The notes under the pieces: generated by a model
Told to the model about the DNA's origin: nothing
What the model saw: only the letters and a program-made list of their open reading frames with translations
The model's database searches: none
DNA from: a bacterium
GTDB lineage: Bacteria; Planctomycetota; Planctomycetia; Planctomycetales; Planctomycetaceae
Assembly: GCA_016124895.1 (NCBI GenBank)
Contig: WGMU01000158.1
Location: 1 to 58,181, forward strand
Reading direction: 5' to 3'
DNA length: 58,181 nucleotides
Shown here: positions 25,233-57,867 of the stretch, piece after piece
Position numbering within the stretch: position 1 is the first letter of the stretch
How the letters are laid out: each line of letters begins with the position of its first letter
Position numbers and translations under genes: made by a program

Positions 25233-26462
25233 ATGCGCCCGGTGACAGTTCTGATTCCCGTTCTCATCAGCGTTTTATCAGTATCTTCCCCGAGCGACTC
25301 GCGACTGCTGGCCACCGACGCTCCCTGGCGGCGGCACACGATCGATCATTCCTCGCGCGGTGCCGACGGCGTTCGGCTCGCGGATGCCAATGGAGACGGC
25401 CATCTCGACATCACGACCGGCTGGGAAGAAGGCGGCATCATCCGCGTTTATCTCAATCCCGGACCGCAGTCCGTCACGCTGAAATGGCCAGCCGTGACGG
25501 TCGGCAAAGTAAAGTCGCCGGAAGACGCTGTCTTCGCGGACCTCGACGGCGATGGAGCTGTCGACGTCGTCAGTTCGTGCGAAGGCAAAACCCGCACGAT
25601 GTTCATCCACTGGGCTCCGTCTGACGGGGCCGACTATCTCCGCGAATCCGCGTGGACAACGCAGGCCATCCCCTGCACACAGAGCAGCCAGATGTGGATG
25701 TTCGCGCTGCCGCTCGACGTTGACGGCCTCAGCGGCATTGACGTCGTCGTCGGCTCGAAGGGCAACAACGGCTCGATTGGCTGGCTCGAATCTCCTGCCG
25801 ATCCGCGCGACATCTCCGCGTGGAAGTATCACCGCCTGCGCGACTCCGGCTGGATCATGTCGCTGATCGCGCGTGATATGGACGACGACGGAGATGACGA
25901 CGTCATCGCGTCCGACCGCAAGGGACCAAACCGCCGTGTGCTGTGGCTTGAGAATCCCGGGCAGACAGCCAATCAATCGCACGCGGACTGGACTGAGCAT
26001 CGAATCGGCGGCGACGACTCGGAAACGATGTTTATCGACGTCCATTCGCCGCGCGAGCAACCCGACTCCCCGCCAACCGAAATCTTCAGCGCCACCAAGC
26101 CGATCGAGATGCGACTGTTTATGCGCGCCAGCGTGTCGTCCGGCTGGCAGACAAGACGGTTGTTGATTGACGACAACGCATCGATCGGTACCGCCAAGAG
26201 TGTCCGTATCGCCGATGTCGACCTGAACGACAAGCCCGACATCGTCTACTCGTGCGAGCAGGCTGATGGCCAGAAACACGGCGTGTTCTGGTTTTCGCCG
26301 AGCGAAAAACGCTTTCATCGCCACCCGATCAGCGGGCCGGAAGGCGTGAAGTTCGACCTGCTGCAGCTCGTCGATCTCGACGCCGACGGAGACCTCGACG
26401 TCATCACGTGCGAAGAACGAGCGAACCTCGGTGTCATCTGGTACGAGAATCCCACCAGATAG
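25233..26462 (+). CDS. Secreted FG-GAP/VCBS repeat protein
   Basis: A 409-residue exported protein with a signal peptide (MRPVTVLIPVLISVLSV). At least six repeats carry calcium-loop-like cores: DANGDGHLDITTG, DLDGDGAVDVVSS, DVDGLSGIDVVVG, DMDDDGDDDVIAS, DVDLNDKPDIVYS and DLDADGDLDVITC. These suggest a seven-bladed beta-propeller like the integrin alpha FG-GAP fold, probably extracellular and calcium-stabilised. No enzymatic motif is seen. The TAG stop codon is the first three bases of a palindromic repeat (26460-26495), so the original C terminus may have been altered by the repeat. Confidence 0.87.
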   Translation: MRPVTVLIPVLISVLSVSSPSDSRLLATDAPWRRHTIDHSSRGADGVRLADANGDGHLDITTGWEEGGIIRVYLNPGPQSVTLKWPAVTVGKVKSPEDAVFADLDGDGAVDVVSSCEGKTRTMFIHWAPSDGADYLRESAWTTQAIPCTQSSQMWMFALPLDVDGLSGIDVVVGSKGNNGSIGWLESPADPRDISAWKYHRLRDSGWIMSLIARDMDDDGDDDVIASDRKGPNRRVLWLENPGQTANQSHADWTEHRIGGDDSETMFIDVHSPREQPDSPPTEIFSATKPIEMRLFMRASVSSGWQTRRLLIDDNASIGTAKSVRIADVDLNDKPDIVYSCEQADGQKHGVFWFSPSEKRFHRHPISGPEGVKFDLLQLVDLDADGDLDVITCEERANLGVIWYENPTR

Positions 26463-26495
26463 CGGAACGGCGCAAGCCGTCCGGTTGATAAATGA
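26460..26495. repeat. Short repeat (TAGCGG-ACGGC family), copy 1
   Basis: The unit starts TAGCGGAACGGCGCAAGCC and continues to AAATGA, with a short internal inverted repeat (CGGAACGGC / GCCGTCCG). A related unit occurs within a coding sequence at 35131-35169. Its first three bases are the stop codon of the FG-GAP gene. Confidence 0.75.
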
Positions 26496-32676: not shown

Positions 32677-35600
32677 TTATTCCGCCGCCTGCTCCCGCAC
32701 TTTCAGAAACAGCTCACTGATAAACTCCGCCCGATGCCGCTGCCAGTCGTTCTGAAACTTCGCCTGCTTGAGCACCAGTTCGACGCGATTGGCGATCGAC
32801 GTCGCGAGTTGCCGGGTCACTGCGTGCGGCTGCAGTTCAAACAGATCGACGAGGTACGCGGCCGATTCGAGCCACGCGTCGAAATCGCCGGCTGTCTCGG
32901 CTGCTTCGAGCCGCACCGTTCCCGCGAAGACCGTCGGCGCGATCGCCTGAGCACGATCGACCAGACGAATCGCCTCGGCGCCGAGTGCTCGCTTCTCTAC
33001 GCCACTGGTCACCTTTGACCGCCAGAGCGCACGAAACGTCAGCGCAAGTGGCAGGGCATTGTCGGCGGGTGTCGCCACCGCGAGGGCTCCATCAAGCTGC
33101 TGCAGCGCGTACCAGTTGTGCCCGTAATAGTGCGTCGCGGCTTCAAGGACCGTTGCTTCCAGTCCGCGCGTCTGCGACGCCAACTGCACAACGCCGCGGC
33201 TGCCACGCCCGGTCGCCGCCTCGAACAGAACGTGTTCGAGCAGCCGAAACTGCGACTGTCGATCGTGCGGGGCAAGCTGCAATGCTCGAGCGAAGTGCGT
33301 CTGCGCTTCGGCCCCGTCTCCAGCAAAGGCCGCCATCAGACCAAGCGATGCCGACCGCTGCTGCTCATCCAGAATCGTCCCTGCCAGTTGCTCAGCCCGC
33401 TCGCGCATCCCGCAACGCAGCAGACGCCGGACAACTCGCGTCGGATCGAGCTGCAGCCGTTCGATCGCCGTCTGTCCATCACGCCGCACAGCCAGAACGT
33501 CGAACTTCGCCAGCCGGGCTTCGGCTCTCATGTCAGGCGAATCCCTGACCATCTGAGGGCAGGACATGGCCAGCAGATTGAAGTCGTCTGTATTGACGGC
33601 CGCTCCGCGAGCGAACTCGCGCAGGGCCGCGGTGTCGAGCGTCAACGCCGCCGCGACGTCATGCACGTCGTTAAGCCCCAGCCACTGGTACTCGCTGAGC
33701 CCGTCGCGGAGCGGCCGGCCCGTCATTTGAATCTGCCGCTCGACGTCCAGCTCACTCGGCGACGCCAGAAACAGCAGCAGCCCCGGCGTCGGCTGATACA
33801 GACGCACGTACGGGAAGACATCGAGCAGCGTCGCACTGATCGATTTCAGCAGTGACTCGTCGACGAACCGCGAGTTCATCCACTGCAGAAAGACGCCGTC
33901 GTCCGTCAGCCGCGAATTCGCCAGTGTGAGAAACTCGCGTGTGTAGAGGTGCGACGCGCCCGCCGTCCACGGATGCGAAGGCTGCGAAACAATCGCGTCG
34001 TACGATTTGCTCGTCAGCGACAGCGCACCGCGGGCATCATTGAGCACGATCCTCACGCGAGAATCAGCCAGTGGATCATCGAAGCGCAGATCGGCTACCT
34101 CGCGGACCGCCTCAATGACGCCCGGTTCAAGCTCGATTACGTCGACCTGTTTGACCGTCGGCGGCACCCCAGCGACTGCTCCACCGCCACCAAAGCCGAC
34201 GACGAGCATTGACTCGGTCTCGGGGCGGGCAATGACGGGAAGCGTCGTCAGCCACCGCAGCCCGGCTTCCGCTCCTGCCACAGCACCACACGGGGAAATC
34301 TCCGACTCCGGCAGCCCGTTTGTGTAGAGCCGAAATCGATCGTGCTCGCGAGTCAGGACGACCGTTGACGAGACGCCCGCTTTGACGAACTGCACATCTC
34401 CCGGCATCGACTCGGTATCGAAACCTGTCCGAGTCAGCAGTCCCATTGGATTGCCGAACGGAACAACAGCCACCGCGACAACCGCTGCCGCACCGGCAAT
34501 CGCCACTCGACGCTGCTGCGGAAAAGCGAACCACAGTACGCCCGTCGTCACCGACAGATTGAGCGCCGCGGCCGCACTGATCGTCCCGCCAAACCCCAGC
34601 AGCGGCAGGCAGACGTGACTTCCCAGCAGCGCCCCGAGTACGCAGCCGACCGTACTCGCCGCGTAAAGTCGTCCGGTCACCGAAGGAACGTGATCCGCGT
34701 TCCGGGTTGCCGCTCGGACAGCCAGCGGAAACGTCATTCCAATCGCCACAGTTGACGGCAGCAGAATCAGCAGACACGCCGCCACGCTGCTCGGATTTCC
34801 CGCTCCAACGACCGCTCCCCGACCAATCCACTCGCACAGTTCAAGCAGCGGATTCAGCCCGAGATATACGCCAATCGCACCGCACGCCGCCGCCAGTTGC
34901 GACCAGCAGAACGCCGCTCGCGGATCACGGCCGCGCGAGACGATCACTCCAGCGAGCCAGCCGCCCCCGGCAATCCCAATCAGAAACGCTGAGAGCATCG
35001 TCGCAAACGCAAACACACTGCCACCTAGAACCTGATTGAGCAGTCGAGTCCACAGCACTTCGTATATGAACGACGAAACGCCAACAGTCGCGACCAGAAC
35101 TGCCCACGTCAGCGACTGGCTCGCTGGTCGTAGCGGCACGGCACAAGCCGTCCGGCCGCAGGCAAATGAGCTTGCTCCTGGCACTTCAACGTCCGATCGC
35201 ACACAAACCCGCTCCACCACAACCGCCAGGGCGAACACGACGCCGTTCACGACAACTCCCACCAGCGTCGTCTGCCACAACCCGAGCGTCGGCAGCAGCA
35301 CAAACGCCGCAACCAGCGTTCCCAGCACCGCACCAAACGTATTGATCGCGTACAGCAGCCCGACACGACCAGCCGCCTCGGCCGCCGAATCGCGGGCGGC
35401 GTGCCGAGCCAGCAGCGGCAGCGTCGCGCCCATACAGATCGTCGGAAGCGCGATCAGCACAAACGCGAGCGTCGCATCGGCAGCGATCTCCAGTAGTCCG
35501 CCCGCTGAAGGAAGTTCCGGCTGGCCACCCAACACCGCCAGGCGAGCCGCCTCGACAGCCTTCAATCCGACAGGGATCAGCAACGCCCCGAGTGCAACGC

Positions 35601-39015: not shown

Positions 39016-39071
39016 GTAGGCCGCGCGAAACGCGGCACCGAAGAGCATCCGCCGCATTTCATGCGGCCTAC
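39016..39071. repeat. Palindromic repeat (GTAGGCCGC family) overlapping a stop codon
   Basis: GTAGGCCGCGCGAAACGCGGC pairs with a downstream arm ending ATGCGGCCTAC. On the minus strand the last bases read CTA-to-TAG, and this TAG is the stop codon of the OstA-like gene at 39068-39070. Confidence 0.75.
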
Positions 39072-42000
39072 TGAATTCCCTGGATATGCGACGCCGAGTC
39101 GACTTCGACCTTGTTCTGCGACGGGGTGAAGCGGAGGGAGCGGGCGGCGGCGACGGCTCGTTTGCCTCCACGCTGCTTTTCACGCGTGAGGATCGAATCG
39201 CGGCCCTTCGACCGCAGCACGTACAGACCTTTTGATTCGTCGTACGAAATCTCGTCCGCCTGAGCGAAGAACGACTGGCCTTCGAGCCGGGCATTCTGGC
39301 TCGCGACCAGCGTCACGTAGGGCGATCCCTGCTGAACAGCTTCCTGAGTCACTCGCAGTTCGCCGCACGACATGATGCCGGCATCTTTCGGCAGGCTGTC
39401 GACGCTGATCACATCCAGGGGAGCCGGCACGGGACCATACACCACCTGCACCTGTCCCTGCAGCAGCAGCGACTTCTGATCGATCCTGCCCGTCATGTCA
39501 CGTGTGAAATCGATCCGCGAGTACTCCCATTTCGACTGCTGTGCCGAGAGACCGCGATTCGCTGCGACCATTGATACCGGTCCCAGCGACGCCCGGTTAC
39601 CCTGCCCACGTTTCCAGACGGTCAGCGTTCCCGGACCGAGCGCCCGCACATCGTTCGTCTGATTATTGACCGAGAACTCCGCGACGCGTGCTCGACGCAC
39701 TTCAACCAGTGCCCCGTCCTCGACGACGTGACTGTCGAACTCAACCAGCCCCGAGCAGTCGATCTTCGCGATCGCCGTCTGCGGCGACTTCGACGGCGAC
39801 AATTTCGACGCTCCATCGGCCGCTTCGCCGAACGAAATCCTCTCGGTCAGCGTGACGTCCATCTGACGGCAGCGCATCGAGCTGTCCTGCAGCGTTGCGT
39901 TGATCCGGCCGTTGAACTGAGCCACCAGCCCGTCGAAAACCATCTGCTCGGACCAGGTGACGGTCAGGTCTTCCGGAGTCGGCAGCGGGCGGCCTTCAAA
40001 ATCCTTATCGACGGCCAGCCGCATTGTGCCGGCACCGTTCACCCAGGCCTCGTTGTCGCCGCGGCTGAAATACAGCTCGGCGCCTTCCAGCTTCATCTGC
40101 GGGTCGTCGATCCGCGCCGGCCGACCGAGCAGGTGCATTCGCTGATCGGTCGCGCCGCGATTGTCGATGTGCAGTTGGTCGCCGGTCAGAACAACGGGCG
40201 ACTCGTCGCGTGAACGCCGATGCCTTACTTCGACACGATCCTCACACAGCACCTCGGCCACGTCCGGCGTCTTCTCGTCGGCGTAACGCACCATGCGAAC
40301 GCGCGTCAGCCGCGAACTGATCTCGACGGGTTCCTTCAGCTCATTCCCAGGCGTGCCCGGCAGCGGCGATGGCTCGGCTCCGCTGGTCAGCTCGATCTTC
40401 TGCCCACCGCCGGAACGATCATCCAGCCGCAGTGAGACCGGCTGCAGCCCGCGTTTCGACTCCGGCGAACGAGCCGGCGCATCCTCAAACCAGACCTGCA
40501 GCTCCTCCATGTTTCCCTGCAGTTCCGGGCTAACGAACGTAACTCGGTCGAGCGCCAGAATTCGCCGCGGCACCGGCTGACTCTTCGCCTGAGAACCCTT
40601 GACCGGGTCACCTTCCGAACTCGTCCCCTGCGACCGCTTTCGATCACCGGCGAGTGACTCCAGTGGGTCAACCCACACCTTGATATAGTCGGCCGTTGCT
40701 CCCGATCGCTCCTGCGGAATCCGCACGACGGCGTCGCCAGCCACATCGATCACGTCAAGCCCGGACTTGGGATCGAAGTACCGGCGCAACTGCTTTTGCC
40801 ATTCGACCTGCAGCGCCGTCTGCAGTCTCGTCGTGCCGCCCTGCCCCGCCTGGACTCCGCCTGCCGCCGCGACATCCGCGCTTACACCGGCCTCCTCGCG
40901 GGAAATCAGCCAACCAGCCCCGCGACAGAAAACGTCTTTGAGATGATGTTCGGCGTCGTGATGCAGTTCGACCTGCGCGCATTCGAGTTCTGTACGCCGT
41001 CGGTCAAAACTCAACCGCACGCGCGGCAACTTACCAGACGCATCGGACTGAGCACTTCGCGGATCGGCGTCGTTGAGCAGCACACGCCGCGCCACGATGT
41101 CGTAATCGAGCGTCGTCATCTGCGCTTCGAGGTCGTTGTCATCTGAACGCAGCCAGACCGGAGCCTCCTTCGACCGCGTCACGCGAAACCGCCGCGGCAC
41201 CAGCGACGACTCGCCGCCCGCTGCCGCCACTCGAGGGAATTGCGGAGAAGCAGGATCGGCAGTCTGCCGCTCAAGCAGCAGATCAATCCGCTCACCGCTG
41301 ATCTCGTCGAAACGCCCCGGACTTGTCTCCATCCGCGCCGTCACGTCCTTCTCAAACGCCGCGATCGCCTGATCCATCATCGCGTCGCCCCGCCCCGTGA
41401 ACTGCAGTCGGAAACTGCCGTCGGCGTTGACGGTCAGGATCTGCTGCGGCGATCCGTCAGGCACCGGCTGCTCTATGCGTCCGACTCGTTTCGCATCGCC
41501 GCCCTGCGGAACAGCAAACTCCATCTGCACATCATGAATCAGATGCACCTCGCGAATGGACGAAACCGCGAGCGGCGTTCCGGCCAGCGGTGAGTCGTCG
41601 ACATCAAGGTCAATCTGAATCTGCTCGGCGCGTCCGTGATGCCGCTTCCAGGCAAACTCGACGGGATTGCTCGAATGGATCTTCGCTGACTTTTCTGAGA
41701 AGACGAAATGATTGCCCTTAATCGCCAGACCATCCGGCCCGGTGATCGACACGGCTCCGATCAACTGCCCGCTGATAACGCGACCGGGATCGAGACTCGT
41801 CGGCTCGATCGAAGACTGAAATGTAATGACGGCCTCGTCGGCGACAATTGCCAGCGGTTCGCGGTCCTGGCGCTGAAACCAGACCATCGCCAGCGGCCGA
41901 AAACGCAGCGAGTGATCGTCGTCGGTCTGCTGCGCATCGCACGTGTAGTAAAACATCCGCGGGCCGGCTTCACGATCTTCGGGATCGTTACGAAATCGTA

Positions 42001-42229
42001 GATCAGCGTCAGCCGCCCATTCATGATCAGACAGAAATTCCCGCGCAATCCTCGCCGTTTCGTCCGCGACCGGCGCGAACGCAACGGCCTGAGGATTCTG
42101 CTCCGGATTCCGATACGCCGGGACCGCTTCGTCCGTCTGCACAAGCGCCCGCACCGCCGACGCGTACGCAAAATACGCAGCCGACAGAGCCACCGTGGTC
42201 AGAACAGTGAGACGAAACCGTGAGAACAC
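39068..42229 (-). CDS. Large OstA/LptA-LptC-like protein
   Basis: A 1053-residue protein. One N-terminal hydrophobic segment (LTVLTTVALSAAYFAYASAV, about 8-27) anchors or exports it. The rest is beta-rich with several stretches like the OstA/LptA jelly-roll repeats: GLAIKGNHFVFSEKSAKIHS, GDQLHIDNRGATDQRMHLLG and LEGAELYFSRGDNEAWVNG. Such domains bind lipid A/LPS acyl chains during transport to the outer membrane. The gene lies 59 bases downstream of kdsD, which makes the Kdo precursor, so a role in LPS transport fits. It is far longer than LptA or LptC and has no LptD barrel that I can see. Its TAG stop lies in a palindromic repeat. Confidence 0.75.
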   Translation of the reverse strand: MFSRFRLTVLTTVALSAAYFAYASAVRALVQTDEAVPAYRNPEQNPQAVAFAPVADETARIAREFLSDHEWAADADLRFRNDPEDREAGPRMFYYTCDAQQTDDDHSLRFRPLAMVWFQRQDREPLAIVADEAVITFQSSIEPTSLDPGRVISGQLIGAVSITGPDGLAIKGNHFVFSEKSAKIHSSNPVEFAWKRHHGRAEQIQIDLDVDDSPLAGTPLAVSSIREVHLIHDVQMEFAVPQGGDAKRVGRIEQPVPDGSPQQILTVNADGSFRLQFTGRGDAMMDQAIAAFEKDVTARMETSPGRFDEISGERIDLLLERQTADPASPQFPRVAAAGGESSLVPRRFRVTRSKEAPVWLRSDDNDLEAQMTTLDYDIVARRVLLNDADPRSAQSDASGKLPRVRLSFDRRRTELECAQVELHHDAEHHLKDVFCRGAGWLISREEAGVSADVAAAGGVQAGQGGTTRLQTALQVEWQKQLRRYFDPKSGLDVIDVAGDAVVRIPQERSGATADYIKVWVDPLESLAGDRKRSQGTSSEGDPVKGSQAKSQPVPRRILALDRVTFVSPELQGNMEELQVWFEDAPARSPESKRGLQPVSLRLDDRSGGGQKIELTSGAEPSPLPGTPGNELKEPVEISSRLTRVRMVRYADEKTPDVAEVLCEDRVEVRHRRSRDESPVVLTGDQLHIDNRGATDQRMHLLGRPARIDDPQMKLEGAELYFSRGDNEAWVNGAGTMRLAVDKDFEGRPLPTPEDLTVTWSEQMVFDGLVAQFNGRINATLQDSSMRCRQMDVTLTERISFGEAADGASKLSPSKSPQTAIAKIDCSGLVEFDSHVVEDGALVEVRRARVAEFSVNNQTNDVRALGPGTLTVWKRGQGNRASLGPVSMVAANRGLSAQQSKWEYSRIDFTRDMTGRIDQKSLLLQGQVQVVYGPVPAPLDVISVDSLPKDAGIMSCGELRVTQEAVQQGSPYVTLVASQNARLEGQSFFAQADEISYDESKGLYVLRSKGRDSILTREKQRGGKRAVAAARSLRFTPSQNKVEVDSASHIQGIQ

Positions 42230-45103: not shown

Positions 45104-45303
45104 TTTTCGTGGTTGTTATCCCGACGCGACAACTGGTGCCATGTCAGTCTCAAGGTCGCTTCGGCACTCCGACCATCGCGCATTCCGGTCTGCTTCCGAT
45201 CGCGTGTCGGGGCTCCTAGAATTCCGCGCCGTTCGAGCCCCGTCGCGACGTTGTGTGACGGTGAGCTCTCTTCGATGTGCCCCGCCAACTGCAGGAAGTC
45301 CCC

Positions 45304-47052
45304 GTGCGCTGGTCCCAAACGCTGATTCCGACGATCAAGGAAGTTCCCTCGGATGCTGAGGTGCCGTCGCACCAGTTGATGCTGCGGGCCGGGCTGATTC
45401 GGCAGCTCATGGCCGGTGCCTACACCTACCTGCCGCTCGGCTATCGGGCACTCCGCAAGGCCGAAGCTGTCGTCCGCGAGGAAATGGAGCGGGCCGGGGC
45501 CATCGAGATTCACATGCCGGCTCTGCAGCCGATCGAGCTGTTCGAGCGGACTGGCCGCAAGGAAGCGTTTGGCAACGTGCTCATCAACTTCGAGGTCAAA
45601 CGCGGCGACCGACGCGTCCACCTGGCACTCGGGCCGACGCACGAGGAAGTTGTCACGGACCTCGTGTCAAAAGTCGTCACGACTTACAAGCAGTTGCCGT
45701 TCACGCTGTTCCAGATTCAGACGAAGTTCCGGAACGAGGAACGACCGCGGTTTGGCGTGCTGCGAACCAGCGAATTCCTGATGAAGGACGCGTACAGCTT
45801 TTCGACCAGCGTCGAGCAGCTCAACGACGCCTACGACGCGATGTACGCCGCCTACTGCCGCATCTTCGCCCGCTGCGGTCTTGAATATCTGCCGGTCGAA
45901 GCCGAAAGCGGTCCGATTGGCGGTGACGCGTCACATGAGTTCATGGTTCCCGCCGGCAATGGAGAAGACACAATCGTCCGCTGCCCGAAGTGCTCGTACG
46001 CCGCGAATCTCGAACGCGCTGACACCGGACGCACAGCGCCGGCGATCGCTCAATCCGCCGAGTGCTCCGAACTCAAACAGGTCGACACTCCCAACGTGAC
46101 GAGCATCGATCAGGTCAGCAAAATGCTGGGCTGCGAACCGTCGCAGATGATCAAAACGCTGATCTACTCAGCCGACGGAAAACCGACCGCCGTCCTGATC
46201 CGCGGTGATCACGACGCCAACGAAGGCAAAGTCCGCCGGGCTCTGGGAGCTTCTTCGGTCGAACTCGCTGACGAGGACACGATTCGCGAAGTGACCGGGG
46301 CTCAGATCGGCTTCGCCGGCCCGGTGGGAATCAAGTGCCCGGTCATCGCCGACCACGATGTTGCAAAGGTCGTCGACGCGATCACCGGAGCAAACACCGC
46401 GGACGTTCACCTGACCGGAGTCAACGTCGGTCGCGATTACCAGCTCGACACGACCTTCGACCTGCGAGATGCCGGCGACGGTGATCCCTGTCCGCGCTGT
46501 GACGGCACACTGGAAATGGTGCATGGCATCGAAGTCGGCCACGTCTTCAAACTCGGCACGAAGTACTCGCAGAGTCTCGACGCGGTTTACATCGACGAGA
46601 AGGAAGCCCGGCATCCGATCATCATGGGCTGCTACGGGATCGGCGTGAACCGCATCATCGCGTCCCTGTGCGAGACACGGTACGACGACAACGGCATCGT
46701 CTGGCCCCTGTCGATCGCCCCGTACGAACTGCTGATCATCCCGCTGAACGTCGACGACGAGGCCGTCATGTCGGTCGCCAACCGCTGTTACGATGAACTG
46801 ACCGCAGCCGGCGTTGATGTGTTGTTCGACGACCGCAAAGCGCGGCCGGGCTTCAAGTTCAAAGATGCCGACCTGATCGGCATACCGCTGCGACTGGTCA
46901 TCGGCGGCAAGGGGCTGCAGGAAGGCCAGGTCGAACTCAAATGGCGCTGGGCCGACGGTCCGGACAAAGTCCCCGTCGACTCTGCCGTCAGCGAAGTCCT
47001 TTCGCAGATTGACGCACAGCGCAAAGTCGAAGCTGAAAAAGTCCCCCAGTAG
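45304..47052 (+). CDS. proS: Prolyl-tRNA synthetase (bacterial type with editing domain)
   Basis: A 582-residue class II aminoacyl-tRNA synthetase that charges tRNA-Pro. The catalytic core has [36 protein letters not shown] and [16 protein letters not shown] YbaK-like editing insert is seen at about 220-390 ([20 protein letters not shown]), as in bacterial Pro[14 protein letters not shown]-like motif 3 follows, then the anticodon-binding domain ([20 protein letters not shown]). The GTG at 45304, five bases after AGGAAG, gives the usual start RWSQT. Its stop codon TAG (47050-47052) is the second to fourth base of a palindromic repeat. The next gene, an oxidoreductase, is 90 bases downstream. 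Confidence 0.95.
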
Positions 47053-47114
47053 GTTGCGTCGAGCGAAGTGCAACGCACCGTGCCCGTTTTGATGGTGCGT
47101 TTCACGCACCCTAC
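47049..47114. repeat. Palindromic repeat (GTAGGGTGCGT family) overlapping the proS stop
   Basis: GTAGGTTGCGT at the left end pairs with ACGCACCCTAC at the right, with inner CAACGCACC and GGTGCGTTTC pairing. The repeat begins one base before the TAG stop codon of proS. Related units lie at 51375, 57338 and 57704. Confidence 0.8.
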
Positions 47115-48260: not shown

Positions 48261-48326
48261 CAGCGCAAAGACGCGAAGCTGCAAAGATTCGCAGAGACTT
48301 TGCGGTCCTTTGCGACTTTGCGCTGC
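48261..48326. repeat. Solo palindromic repeat (CAGCGCAAAGACGCGAAG family), copy A
   Basis: Left arm starts CAGCGCAAAGACGCGAAG and right arm ends GACTTTGCGCTG; the two are joined with no gene between. It resembles the two arms that bracket the GxxExxY gene at 52912-53403. It lies between the oxidoreductase and MFS genes, and a longer MFS start at 48310 would fall inside it. Confidence 0.8.
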
Positions 48327-49692: not shown

Positions 49693-50238
49693 GCACTTCC
49701 TGGAAAAGCAATTCGTGACTGATTCCCTGCAGCGACTGGAGTGTCAGCGTGTCGTTGCAGCGCAAAGGCACGAAGTCACAAAGCATCGCAAAGACTTTGC
49801 GTTCCTCTGACCTTCGCATCTTTGCGCTGCAGTCAGTCTGAGAGAGGAAGACTGCGAGCGTACTCGACCCATCTTCTTAACAGAAAACTGATCTAGGTCG
49901 ATTCCTGGAAATTGAACTAATCTCCGGCCCCTTCCTATCGCTGGCCGGCAGGATTCGCCTGCTCACCAGTCCCGTCGAAATCCCACCTCGACTGTTCCCC
50001 TCTGTCAAACTTTTCCGATCAGGAGAAATCTCCCAATTAAGCTGACCCTTCGGCCATAGATCTGCCGATAAGGAACAGGCTCATGTCGTACCGAGGGCAG
50101 TGTGCCTTCCACGGCAAAGAGCTGACGGACAGCACACGATCGCCAGCAAGGCCGGAAGCCTGCTGCTGATATCGATGCCGTCCGATCGAGTTCCGCCTGA
50201 TTCGAGACAGACCTGTGGCTTTGCACGTCGCCTGCCGA
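49693..50238 (+). other. Gap between MFS gene and sigma-factor operon
   Basis: No confident gene. It holds the solo repeat at 49758-49829 and a short 5-bp hairpin at 49948-49962. An AAGGA box before an ATG at 50083 starts a 28-codon frame that lacks support. GC content appears lower than in the genes, as expected of a promoter region. I see no tRNA. Confidence 0.5.
49758..49829. repeat. Solo palindromic repeat (CAGCGCAAAGACGCGAAG family), copy B
   Basis: Left arm starts CAGCGCAAAGGCACGAAGTC and right arm ends CATCTTTGCGCTG. Like copy A at 48261 it has both arms joined with a centre CGCAAAGACTTTGCG and no gene. The arms match those bracketing the GxxExxY gene at 52912 and 53403. Confidence 0.8.
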
Positions 50239-50457: not shown

Positions 50458-50515
50458 CGACTGCTGCGAGCTGACTCAGGGACGAGCCGCCGAGGCAGAA
50501 CGAGTTGACAACCAC

Positions 50516-50520
50516 GGAGG
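50516..50520 (+). promoter_or_regulatory. Ribosome binding site of the sigma factor gene
   Basis: GGAGG lies five bases before ATG 50526. It fixes that start rather than the earlier ORF start at 50505. Confidence 0.7.
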
Positions 50521-50525
50521 GTTAC

Positions 50526-51308
<783 letters not shown>

Positions 51309-51330
51309 GCCGCGACCGCCCACGAATAAG

Positions 51331-51372
51331 AAAAGGGACGGCATCCAAACTGGATGCCGTCCCTTTTTCGTT
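51331..51372. terminator. Strong rho-independent terminator
   Basis: A long stem (GGGACGGCATCC pairing with GGATGCCGTCCC) with a five-base loop is flanked by A-runs and followed by TTTTTCGTTTT. It directly follows the sigma factor stop. Confidence 0.9.
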
Positions 51373-51374
51373 TT

Positions 51375-51429
51375 GTAGGGTGCGTGTAACGCACCAGCCT
51401 TGTCTGTGGTGCGTTTTACGCACCCTTAC
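51375..51429. repeat. Palindromic repeat (GTAGGGTGCGT family)
   Basis: GTAGGGTGCGTGTAACGCACC pairs with GGTGCGTTTTACGCACCCTT plus AC. It lies between the sigma factor terminator and the stop of the aldehyde-dehydrogenase-like gene. A related unit overlaps the proS stop at 47049. Confidence 0.8.
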
Positions 51430-51442
51430 AGCAGCCGATCGC

Positions 51443-52911: not shown

Positions 52912-53403
52912 CAGCGCAAAGACGCGAAGTCGCAAAGGGACGCAAAGAGTTAACGGTTATTCTTTAAGGTCGTTGACGACTCGGTGGATGCCATCCTTCA
53001 CAAACCGCTCACCAAAGTTCACGACCAGACCAAGGCGTTTGTTTGTAATCCTTAACTGAGTCAGACACTGGGCTTTGTGGACATCCAGAACTTTTTCAAC
53101 CGCCTTGCACTCAACAACGACCAGTTCATTGACAAGCAGGTCGAGCCGATACGTCTTACTGAGGCTCTTTCCCTTGTAAATCACCGGCACACAGATCTGG
53201 CGGTCAACCCGCAGTCCACGGAGTTCCAGTTCGCAACAGAATGCTTCCTCATAGTGCTCTTCGAGCAACCCGGGACCACCGAGGCATTTATGAACCTCGA
53301 TGGCAGCCCCAATGATCTCGTGACTCAGTTCATTCTCAGTCATGACACCTTCCGACGCTTCGTTCTTCTTTGCGAATCTCTGCGTCTCCGCGTCTTTGCG
53401 CTG
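52912..53403. mobile_element. Inverted-repeat-bounded unit carrying the GxxExxY gene
   Basis: Left arm 52912-52949 starts CAGCGCAAAGACGCGAAG; the reverse complement of right arm 53366-53403 starts CAGCGCAAAGACGCGGAG. They agree at the outer 15 bases and at most positions further in. Between them lies just the GxxExxY gene. Outside, the gap is only 20 bases to the ALDH start and 16 bases to the ANL stop, so without this unit the two neighbours would be about 36 bases apart. This makes later insertion into an operon likely. Arms joined without the gene occur at 48261-48326 and 49758-49829. Confidence 0.65.
52957..53343 (-). CDS. GxxExxY protein, PD-(D/E)XK-like fold
   Basis: A 128-residue protein. 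The name-giving motif is G25-LLE-EH-Y31 (GLLEEHY). D68 and E78-C-K80 (YRLDLLVNELVVVECKAV) match the D...ExK core of the PD-(D/E)XK nuclease superfamily, to which this family is assigned. The biochemical role of GxxExxY proteins is unknown; nuclease activity is inference from the fold. The gene occupies the whole space between two inverted-repeat arms and interrupts an ANL / ALDH-like operon. There is no sign of a transposase, integrase or toxin partner nearby. Confidence 0.9.
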   Translation of the reverse strand: MTENELSHEIIGAAIEVHKCLGGPGLLEEHYEEAFCCELELRGLRVDRQICVPVIYKGKSLSKTYRLDLLVNELVVVECKAVEKVLDVHKAQCLTQLRITNKRLGLVVNFGERFVKDGIHRVVNDLKE

Positions 53404-56737: not shown

Positions 56738-56836
56738 GTAGGCCGGACCCAGGAGCGCAGCGAAGCAGGTCCGGCAGCATCGTATTTGGAGGACGTTCGC
56801 AGTTGCCGGAACATCGCTGCGCTCGGTCCGGCCTAC
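56738..56836. repeat. Palindromic repeat (GTAGGCCGGACC family)
   Basis: GTAGGCCGGACC and a right arm GGTCCGGCCTAC are exact reverse complements. A further GAGCGCAGCGA pairs with TCGCTGCGCTC, offset by a short bulge. It lies between the pseudogene and the next small gene. Confidence 0.75.
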
Positions 56837-57325: not shown

Positions 57326-57337
57326 CACAGGGAATCC

Positions 57338-57476
57338 GTAGGGTGCGTGGAGCGGACGATTTCGGGTGGCGGTGCGTTGCGCGGGCAGCGGGTTCCGAAA
57401 TCCTGTCGCGTCGCTTGTCTCATCGTCGTCCGCGTAACGCACCGACCTTCAGTTTCGCCCGCTCCACGCACCCTAC
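57338..57476. repeat. 139-bp repeat (GTAGGGTGCGT family), copy C
   Basis: Ends GTAGGGTGCGTGGAGCGG and CCGCTCCACGCACCCTAC are exact reverse complements. A direct copy at 57704-57842 differs at about 4 of 139 positions counted by eye. Shorter relatives lie at 47049 and 51375. Confidence 0.9.
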
Positions 57477-57483
57477 GACAACT

Positions 57484-57675
57484 TCACTTTCGACGTTCAA
57501 GTTCTGCTTTGGCCTCTTCGCCTCCAAGCTTCCACGATCGGCGGGCCTTGTTGCCTTTTACCCAGCGTTCCATTTTGAAACAGGCATCGATCCAGTCGGC
57601 GAGCTGATCGACAGTCATGTCCTGGACCTTGCGGCCTCGAAGTTGTTGCTGAGAGTTGGACAGGGGTTCGAGCAT
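57484..57675 (-). CDS. Small protein of unknown function between two 139-bp repeats
   Basis: A 63-residue protein starting MLEPLSNSQQQLRGRKVQDM. It is basic, with a helical-looking segment TVDQLADWIDACFKMERWVK and a C-terminal end EEAKAELERRK. I do not recognise it. A longer in-frame extension upstream to 57837 reads through the repeat and is rejected. The gene lies exactly between two direct copies of a 139-bp repeat and ends 7 bases before copy C. Confidence 0.55.
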   Translation of the reverse strand: MLEPLSNSQQQLRGRKVQDMTVDQLADWIDACFKMERWVKGNKARRSWKLGGEEAKAELERRK

Positions 57676-57703
57676 GAGACAAATCCGCCAAACAACAGAA
57701 GCC

Positions 57704-57842
57704 GTAGGGTGCGTGGAGCGGACGATTCCGGGTGACGGTGCGTTACGCGGGCAACGGGTTCCGAAATCCTGTCGCGTCGCTTGTCTCATCGTCGTCCGCG
57801 TAACGCACCGACCTTCAGTTTCGCCCGCTCCACGCACCCTAC
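57704..57842. repeat. 139-bp repeat (GTAGGGTGCGT family), copy D
   Basis: Direct copy of the unit at 57338-57476 with about 4 differences. The two copies flank the 63-codon gene. Confidence 0.9.
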
Positions 57843-57867
57843 GACGCCTTTGCTGGCGATCCTCAAG

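Follow-up and report, generated by a model that had tools for sequence, protein, structure and literature searches.

GTAG-tagged REP elements lie directly behind stop codons in a planctomycete genome, probably at GTAGs that were already present

The window, a stretch of 58,181 nucleotides, is contig C79 of a genome of 8.13 Mb in 195 contigs, and its genes carry the planctomycete-type domains PSCyt1, PSCyt2, PSD1 and DUF1501 (Pfam), from which the host is taken to be a planctomycete. Three of the genes end at the edge of a palindromic repeat. The proS-type prolyl-tRNA synthetase gene (45277..47052, plus strand; Pfam tRNA-synt_2b, tRNA_edit and HGTP_anticodon) has the stop GTAG, the TAG of which (47050-47052) is part of a hairpin GTAG...CTAC and lies at its start; this REP pair (47049..47114, plus strand) is evident in the sequence and in a paired-hairpin scan, with a DNA fold z of -3.7. 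On the minus strand, a gene encoding 1053 residues (39068..42229) stops with a TAG (39068-39070) at the edge of a second REP pair GTAG...CTAC (39016..39071, minus strand), supported by the sequence, a DNA fold z of -4.1 and the paired-hairpin scan. The FG-GAP repeat gene (25233..26462, plus strand; Pfam FG-GAP_3) ends with a TAG at 26460-26462, directly followed by CGGAACGGCGCAAGCCGTCCGG, and this TAG opens a repeat of the family hereafter called J, TAG-CGGAACGGCGCAAGCCGTCCGGT (26460..26485, plus strand, the end being 26484 or 26485). An earlier note on this DNA had singled out these three stops, and the positions it gave are exact, with a hairpin directly behind each. The context is GTAG at proS and at the minus-strand gene and ATAG at the FG-GAP gene. 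The name that the note gave to the minus-strand gene, OstA-like, is unsupported, as the protein has no Pfam match.

The window holds further repeats. A REP pair of the GGTGCGT family (51375..51430, plus strand) lies downstream of a sigma-factor gene (50505-51308), not at its stop. This gene was dropped as a candidate REP-stop case, since its GTAG stop has no adjoining hairpin; the interval 51305-51430 contains the GTAG of the gene, then a long hairpin resembling a terminator, with a run of Ts, and after it the REP pair. Another pair, GTAGGCCGGACC...GGTCCGGCCTAC (56738..56836, plus strand; paired-hairpin scan), is located 17 nt downstream of the end of a DUF1501 gene (Pfam). Two tandem GTAG...CTAC elements (57338..57476 and 57704..57842, plus strand; sequence and paired-hairpin scan) belong to a 170-nt stretch with a 139-nt element, repeated within 57332-57867 as two copies 366 nt apart with 92% identity. 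A family J copy at 35131-35155 lies inside a gene, antisense to it, and a short repeat family unrelated to GTAG REPs, CAGCGCAAAGACGCGAAG..., is present in three copies (48261-48306, 49758-49803 and 52912-52957).

The repeats at the three stops are GTAG-tagged REP elements. Passages of Di Nocera et al. 2013 (PMC3733652) describe GTAG REPs as GTAG plus a short palindrome, present in many copies and often as inverted pairs, report them in Planctomycetes, and state that, for the ORFs beside them, their termini "often provide" the TAG stop. In the host genome, GTAG adjoins the palindrome in the proS and 39016-39071 repeats, the FG-GAP copy having ATAG. Nine stem patterns were sorted, two of them loose, and genome-wide counts gave 80 copies of GGCCGGTTCC (two mismatches allowed at most), 64 of TTTCTCCGAAA (at most one) and 11 of family J, TAGCGGAACGGC...AGCCGTCCGG (at most one), with 0 for the reversed patterns. 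The elements are mainly extragenic: in a 2.37-Mb sample, 69 of 90 GTAG hairpins lay in non-coding DNA. There, GTAG was followed by a hairpin in 69 of 1,093 occurrences, the highest rate among tetranucleotides seen more than 200 times, AAAA being second with 5.5% and the overall rate 0.67%. Family J has 85 near-identical copies in G001, a genome of the same genus, compared with 11 in the host genome, and the copies in G001 are a recent burst.

The host genome also encodes REP-associated tyrosine transposases (RAYTs), as two proteins, L007 and L008, score above the NCBIfam cut-off for this family and a third Y1 protein, L005, scores below it. Neither the L007 nor the L008 gene has a GTAG, GTGG or GCAG hairpin within 350 nt, the arrangement of a REPtron, in which a RAYT gene is flanked by its REP. 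Downstream of the sub-threshold L005, at a distance of 98 nt, lies a GCAG-tagged TTTTTCCAAAA hairpin. Elsewhere (G000:C132 9457-10159; L002 and L006), a Y1 transposase match is split into two halves with a GTAG-tagged hairpin array, GTAGCCCGGCGTTTCAACGCCGGG, between them.

The coincidence remarked on in three genes of the window recurs in the genome far above chance, and in several unrelated repeat families. Stop codons were tabulated against repeat ends in 2.37 of the 8.13 Mb, where a hexamer-based home-made script called 1,600 genes on the draft contigs, 1,594 of them usable, and a hairpin was scored when a stem of seven perfect pairs, or of nine with one mismatch, started at the base directly after the stop. 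Such a hairpin was found behind 14 of 194 GTAG-ending genes, 9 of 1,400 others (Fisher p 3e-8) and 0 of 119 genes ending with ATAG, CTAG or TTAG (p 0.001). For GTAG genes, the profile of hairpin starts peaks at offset 0, with shoulders produced by longer stems. Strict hits are unevenly spread: the first 1.58 Mb have 13 among 123 GTAG stops, and the 71 such stops that were added later contribute about one more; judged by REP-family sequence, the later-added sequence holds several REP-stop cases. A family-based list, which tolerates decayed stems, comprises 27 REP-stop genes, two of them added by hand, or 26 once the sigma-factor gene is dropped; 22 of these end with GTAG, four with GTAA and none with TGA. 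Some entries, above all C22 22788-24071, were assigned by loose family patterns. An origin by chance or by faulty gene calling might be suspected, since the gene caller was home-made, the contigs are drafts and one of the 27 listed cases was wrong. It is scarcely credible given the Fisher p of 3e-8, the existence of G001 orthologues for 22 of the 27 genes and the recurrence in other bacteria described below, and the counts refute it.

The complete lack of hairpins behind the 119 other NTAG stops led us to reject TAG, rather than GTAG, as the motif. The same table bears on a functional explanation, in which REPs insert widely and the copies behind stops are kept as useful hairpins, acting at the mRNA end or in translation control. 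REPs of E. coli within 15 nt of a stop reportedly reduce translation (cited in PMC12306157), but usefulness leaves the GTAG-only context unexplained, hairpins being found behind 0 of 119 other NTAG stops and 5 of 973 TGA stops; we therefore disfavour this explanation and regard it as very improbable.

The earlier note proposed that a bias for insertion at TAG would constitute a new targeting rule. The coincidence does point to a placement rule, but its motif is GTAG, stops are not preferred, and the bare overlap had already been published. In the 2.37-Mb sample, a hairpin follows GTAG in 14 of 195 cases at stops and 55 of 907 at other non-coding sites (p 0.52), as well as in 3 of 330 cases in sense coding and 18 of 3,937 in antisense coding DNA. 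Occupancy is thus equal at stops and at other non-coding GTAGs, and a preference for stop codons as such was rejected. GTAG is itself rare in sense coding DNA of this sample (330 occurrences, against 3,937 in antisense), so that most GTAGs that read in the direction of a gene belong to stops and non-coding DNA. Use of existing GTAGs by REPs predicts 11.9 exact overlaps, and 14 are seen. The apparent rule is that a REP lies behind a tolerated, pre-existing GTAG, not that it lies at stop codons.

The opposite possibility is that a REP carries its own GTAG, inserts near a gene end and supplies, when in frame, a new TAG stop that redefines the C terminus. In its favour, REPs of many families share a conserved GTAG, and descriptions of the element count this tag as belonging to it. 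However, were REPs to bring GTAG to random non-coding places, only 0.1 exact overlaps would be expected, or 1.1 with ten tolerated codons per gene, against the 14 seen. The reading phase speaks the same way: of 16 genes whose end coincides with a REP edge or lies a short way past it, 14 stop precisely on the TAG of the REP, where random phase predicts one third; a GTAG hairpin that precedes the end of its called gene by 1,226 nt was left out of this count. The gap at stop-REP distances of 1 to 3 is no evidence here, as the sequence GTAG itself rules out 1 and 2 and almost rules out 3.

Comparison of C termini with orthologues gives a more direct view. That repeats had redefined the C termini, as the earlier note supposed they might, is not borne out as the general case, same-residue ends being as frequent as in controls. 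For the 22 REP-stop genes with an orthologue in G001, the last residue is the same in 14 pairs and within two residues in 18, compared with 16 and 17 of 21 neighbouring control genes (p 0.51). A REP is also present at the G001 stop in six of the 22 pairs. The other 16 partners have no REP at their stop, and ten of them, including that of the 39068-42229 gene, nevertheless end at the same residue as the host gene; these pairs were read by hand, and the ratio becomes 9/15 if the C22 22788 pair, which rests on a loose pattern, is excluded. The REP-free partners stop with GTAG in four cases, GTAA in four, ATAG or TTAG in two, ATAA or TTAA in two and CTGA in four. Three of the four GTAG stops, those in the partners of C53 3043, C8 52332 and C9 630, fall on the matching residue and the other is one residue off; no hairpin lies directly behind any of them.

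ProS has the same last residue and GTAG, with no hairpin, in G007 and G002, which represent two other genera, and the 39068-42229 gene has the same last residue, with TAA, in both G001 and G007. Same-residue ends without the repeat, which the earlier note had named as grounds for refuting its idea, were thus observed in ten of 16 same-genus pairs and for proS in two other genera. For the FG-GAP protein, homologues from seven of ten genomes can be aligned as far as residue 408 or 409 of its 409, and therefore the host protein is not extended; the stops of these homologues are not visible. The reverse direction is also represented: where G001 has GTAG and a family J repeat, the host counterpart terminates on the matching residue with ATAA and has no repeat, and at L210 a G001 repeat at a stop faces a host TGA one residue away. 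The stop class of the REP-free partners was also compared. TGA accounts for 4 of 16, a share well below that of host genes (973/1,594, 61%; p 0.004) and such as inherited stops would show. Of 30 ordinary GTAG-stop genes taken as controls, 12 were readable, giving a single unambiguous stop at an identity of at least 75%, and one of these 12 faces a TGA partner; 4/16 and 1/12 do not differ significantly. Length does differ in 8 of the 22 gene pairs, and in C34 77881, of the TTTCTCCGAAA family, the last two codons may derive from the conserved left bases of the repeat and hence may be a case of a carried GTAG. With same-residue ends at 14/22 versus 16/21 in controls, and with the overlap and phase counts above, the carried-GTAG explanation is nonetheless largely refuted, and we consider it improbable as a general account.

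One pair illustrates a further route. In the G001 partner of C8 52332, the stop GAGTAG is followed by 26 nt and then by GAGTAG with the same REP family, and the host has a single GAGTAG with the REP. This is what would be expected if a REP landed downstream with its own GTAG, and a later deletion between the stop GTAG and the REP GTAG put the REP on the stop; stop and GTAG would be pre-existing in this case too. However, this is a single case that insertion in G001 explains equally well, and deletion alone would not yield equal occupancy at stop and non-stop GTAGs. We hold it unlikely to be the main route.

One REP family, GTAGGGTGCGT...ACGCACC, shows the same spike at stops in other phyla. 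A scan of other bacteria gave, among the matches listed, at least 135 usable copies in at least 118 loci, after 15 copies near the edges of contig pieces had been dropped; 27 copies had no 100-codon ORF nearby and six lay inside a longer ORF. Of the 135 copies among the matches listed, 13 coincide precisely with the stop of an ORF that has at least 100 codons, the next commonest distance being represented by four. Ten of these 13 belong to Alphaproteobacteria and one each to Kangiella, a campylobacterote and a phycisphaeran; none comes from a cyanobacterial record, though many of the loci are cyanobacterial. The overlap is uneven among the listed loci, with 12 of 95 copies in the first 80 and 1 of 40 in the later 38. 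Close relatives of four of these REP loci, sought among plasmids, yielded nothing useful.

Taken together, these results lead us to propose, as the probable account, that REPs come to lie behind GTAGs already in the genome. New copies would land immediately 3' of an existing GTAG, the mover probably being a REP-associated tyrosine transposase or a related enzyme; that L007 and L008 lack flanking GTAG hairpins counts against this account. A gene end of the form xxG-TAG would be a harmless site, because insertion behind it leaves the protein unchanged, and a repeat inserted behind an existing stop would therefore only look like the supplier of that stop. As to direction, we infer insertion rather than loss. 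Four of the REP-free partners have TGA and four GTAA, which counts against a pre-existing GTAG, as do the host ATAA and TGA that face G001 repeats at stops; in the GTAA cases, the last G could have arrived with the element.

Whether GTAG is the target or is carried may differ between families. In comparisons where GTAG or TAG was itself part of the search patterns, the bases preceding GTAG show no conservation in either the GGTGCGT family of other bacteria or the GGCCGGTTCC family, and in 26 family J copies the first base of the tag varies (15 G, 6 A, 3 T and 2 C). By contrast, most of 29 TTTCTCCGAAA copies from the host genome and G001 share a conserved AGCY in front of GTAG. This element seems to begin further left than GTAG, and because of these conserved bases GTAG is probably carried by the TTTCTCCGAAA family. 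For families without conserved left bases, we tentatively suggest that GTAG may be the insertion target, that REPs may integrate behind pre-existing GTAGs in several phyla, and that TAG stops may simply be well-tolerated GTAGs; we give this less weight because the later foreign loci are weaker and the stops of the FG-GAP homologues are not visible. As to the tetranucleotide before insertion, three of the 16 REP-free partners from the same genus carry GTAG on the matching last residue, as does REP-free proS from two genera, the rest having other stops; the occupancy counts agree, and there is no strain-level empty site. Clean empty sites for REP copies away from stops were sought in G001 and none was found, because this genome is too diverged.

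REPs and their overlap with stops are thus already known, from passages of PMC3733652. In the literature covered by a full-text search, from which 2012 work on the E. coli enzyme that may bear on the point falls out of scope, the parts consulted hold no statement of a pre-existing stop or of GTAG as target, and how REPs spread is called unresolved in passages of PMC8266576 and PMC3116915. As REPs are very common bacterial repeats, a rule of placement behind an existing GTAG, stops included, would turn a printed remark into a testable mechanism and, if true, would give REP dissemination an insertion rule readable from genomes. It also cautions that stops at REP edges should not be taken as altered C termini. 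GTAG stop codons would be natural pre-insertion sites to watch in strain collections, and the burst of family J in G001 offers a good natural system for empty-site studies.

Compared with known systems, the repeats described here share with the GTAG REP super-family (PMC3733652) a GTAG beside a palindrome, many copies, head-to-head pairs and a mostly intergenic location. The host genome has several stem families and the published work 24, and the passages of that work concerned contain no test of whether the stop pre-existed. With E. coli REP/BIME elements and TnpAREP (PMC8266576), the common features are a GTAG foot, a hairpin, paired inverted units and a RAYT-type enzyme. The difference is that, in passages of this source, GTAG serves the enzymes of E. 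coli, Stenotrophomonas and Marinomonas as a motif for recognition or guidance, and these enzymes cut at CT or CA (CT in E. coli); GTAG would therefore be carried, against its reading as a target. IS200/IS605 elements insert 3' of a target tetranucleotide, according to passages of PMC6006769. REPs differ from them in having no transposase gene, and their use of GTAG as a target is read from positions only. They resemble IS200/IS605 members such as IS608 (PMC6006769, PMC8266576) in their hairpin ends and in the fixed tetranucleotide that flanks the left end, which in those insertion sequences is the target.
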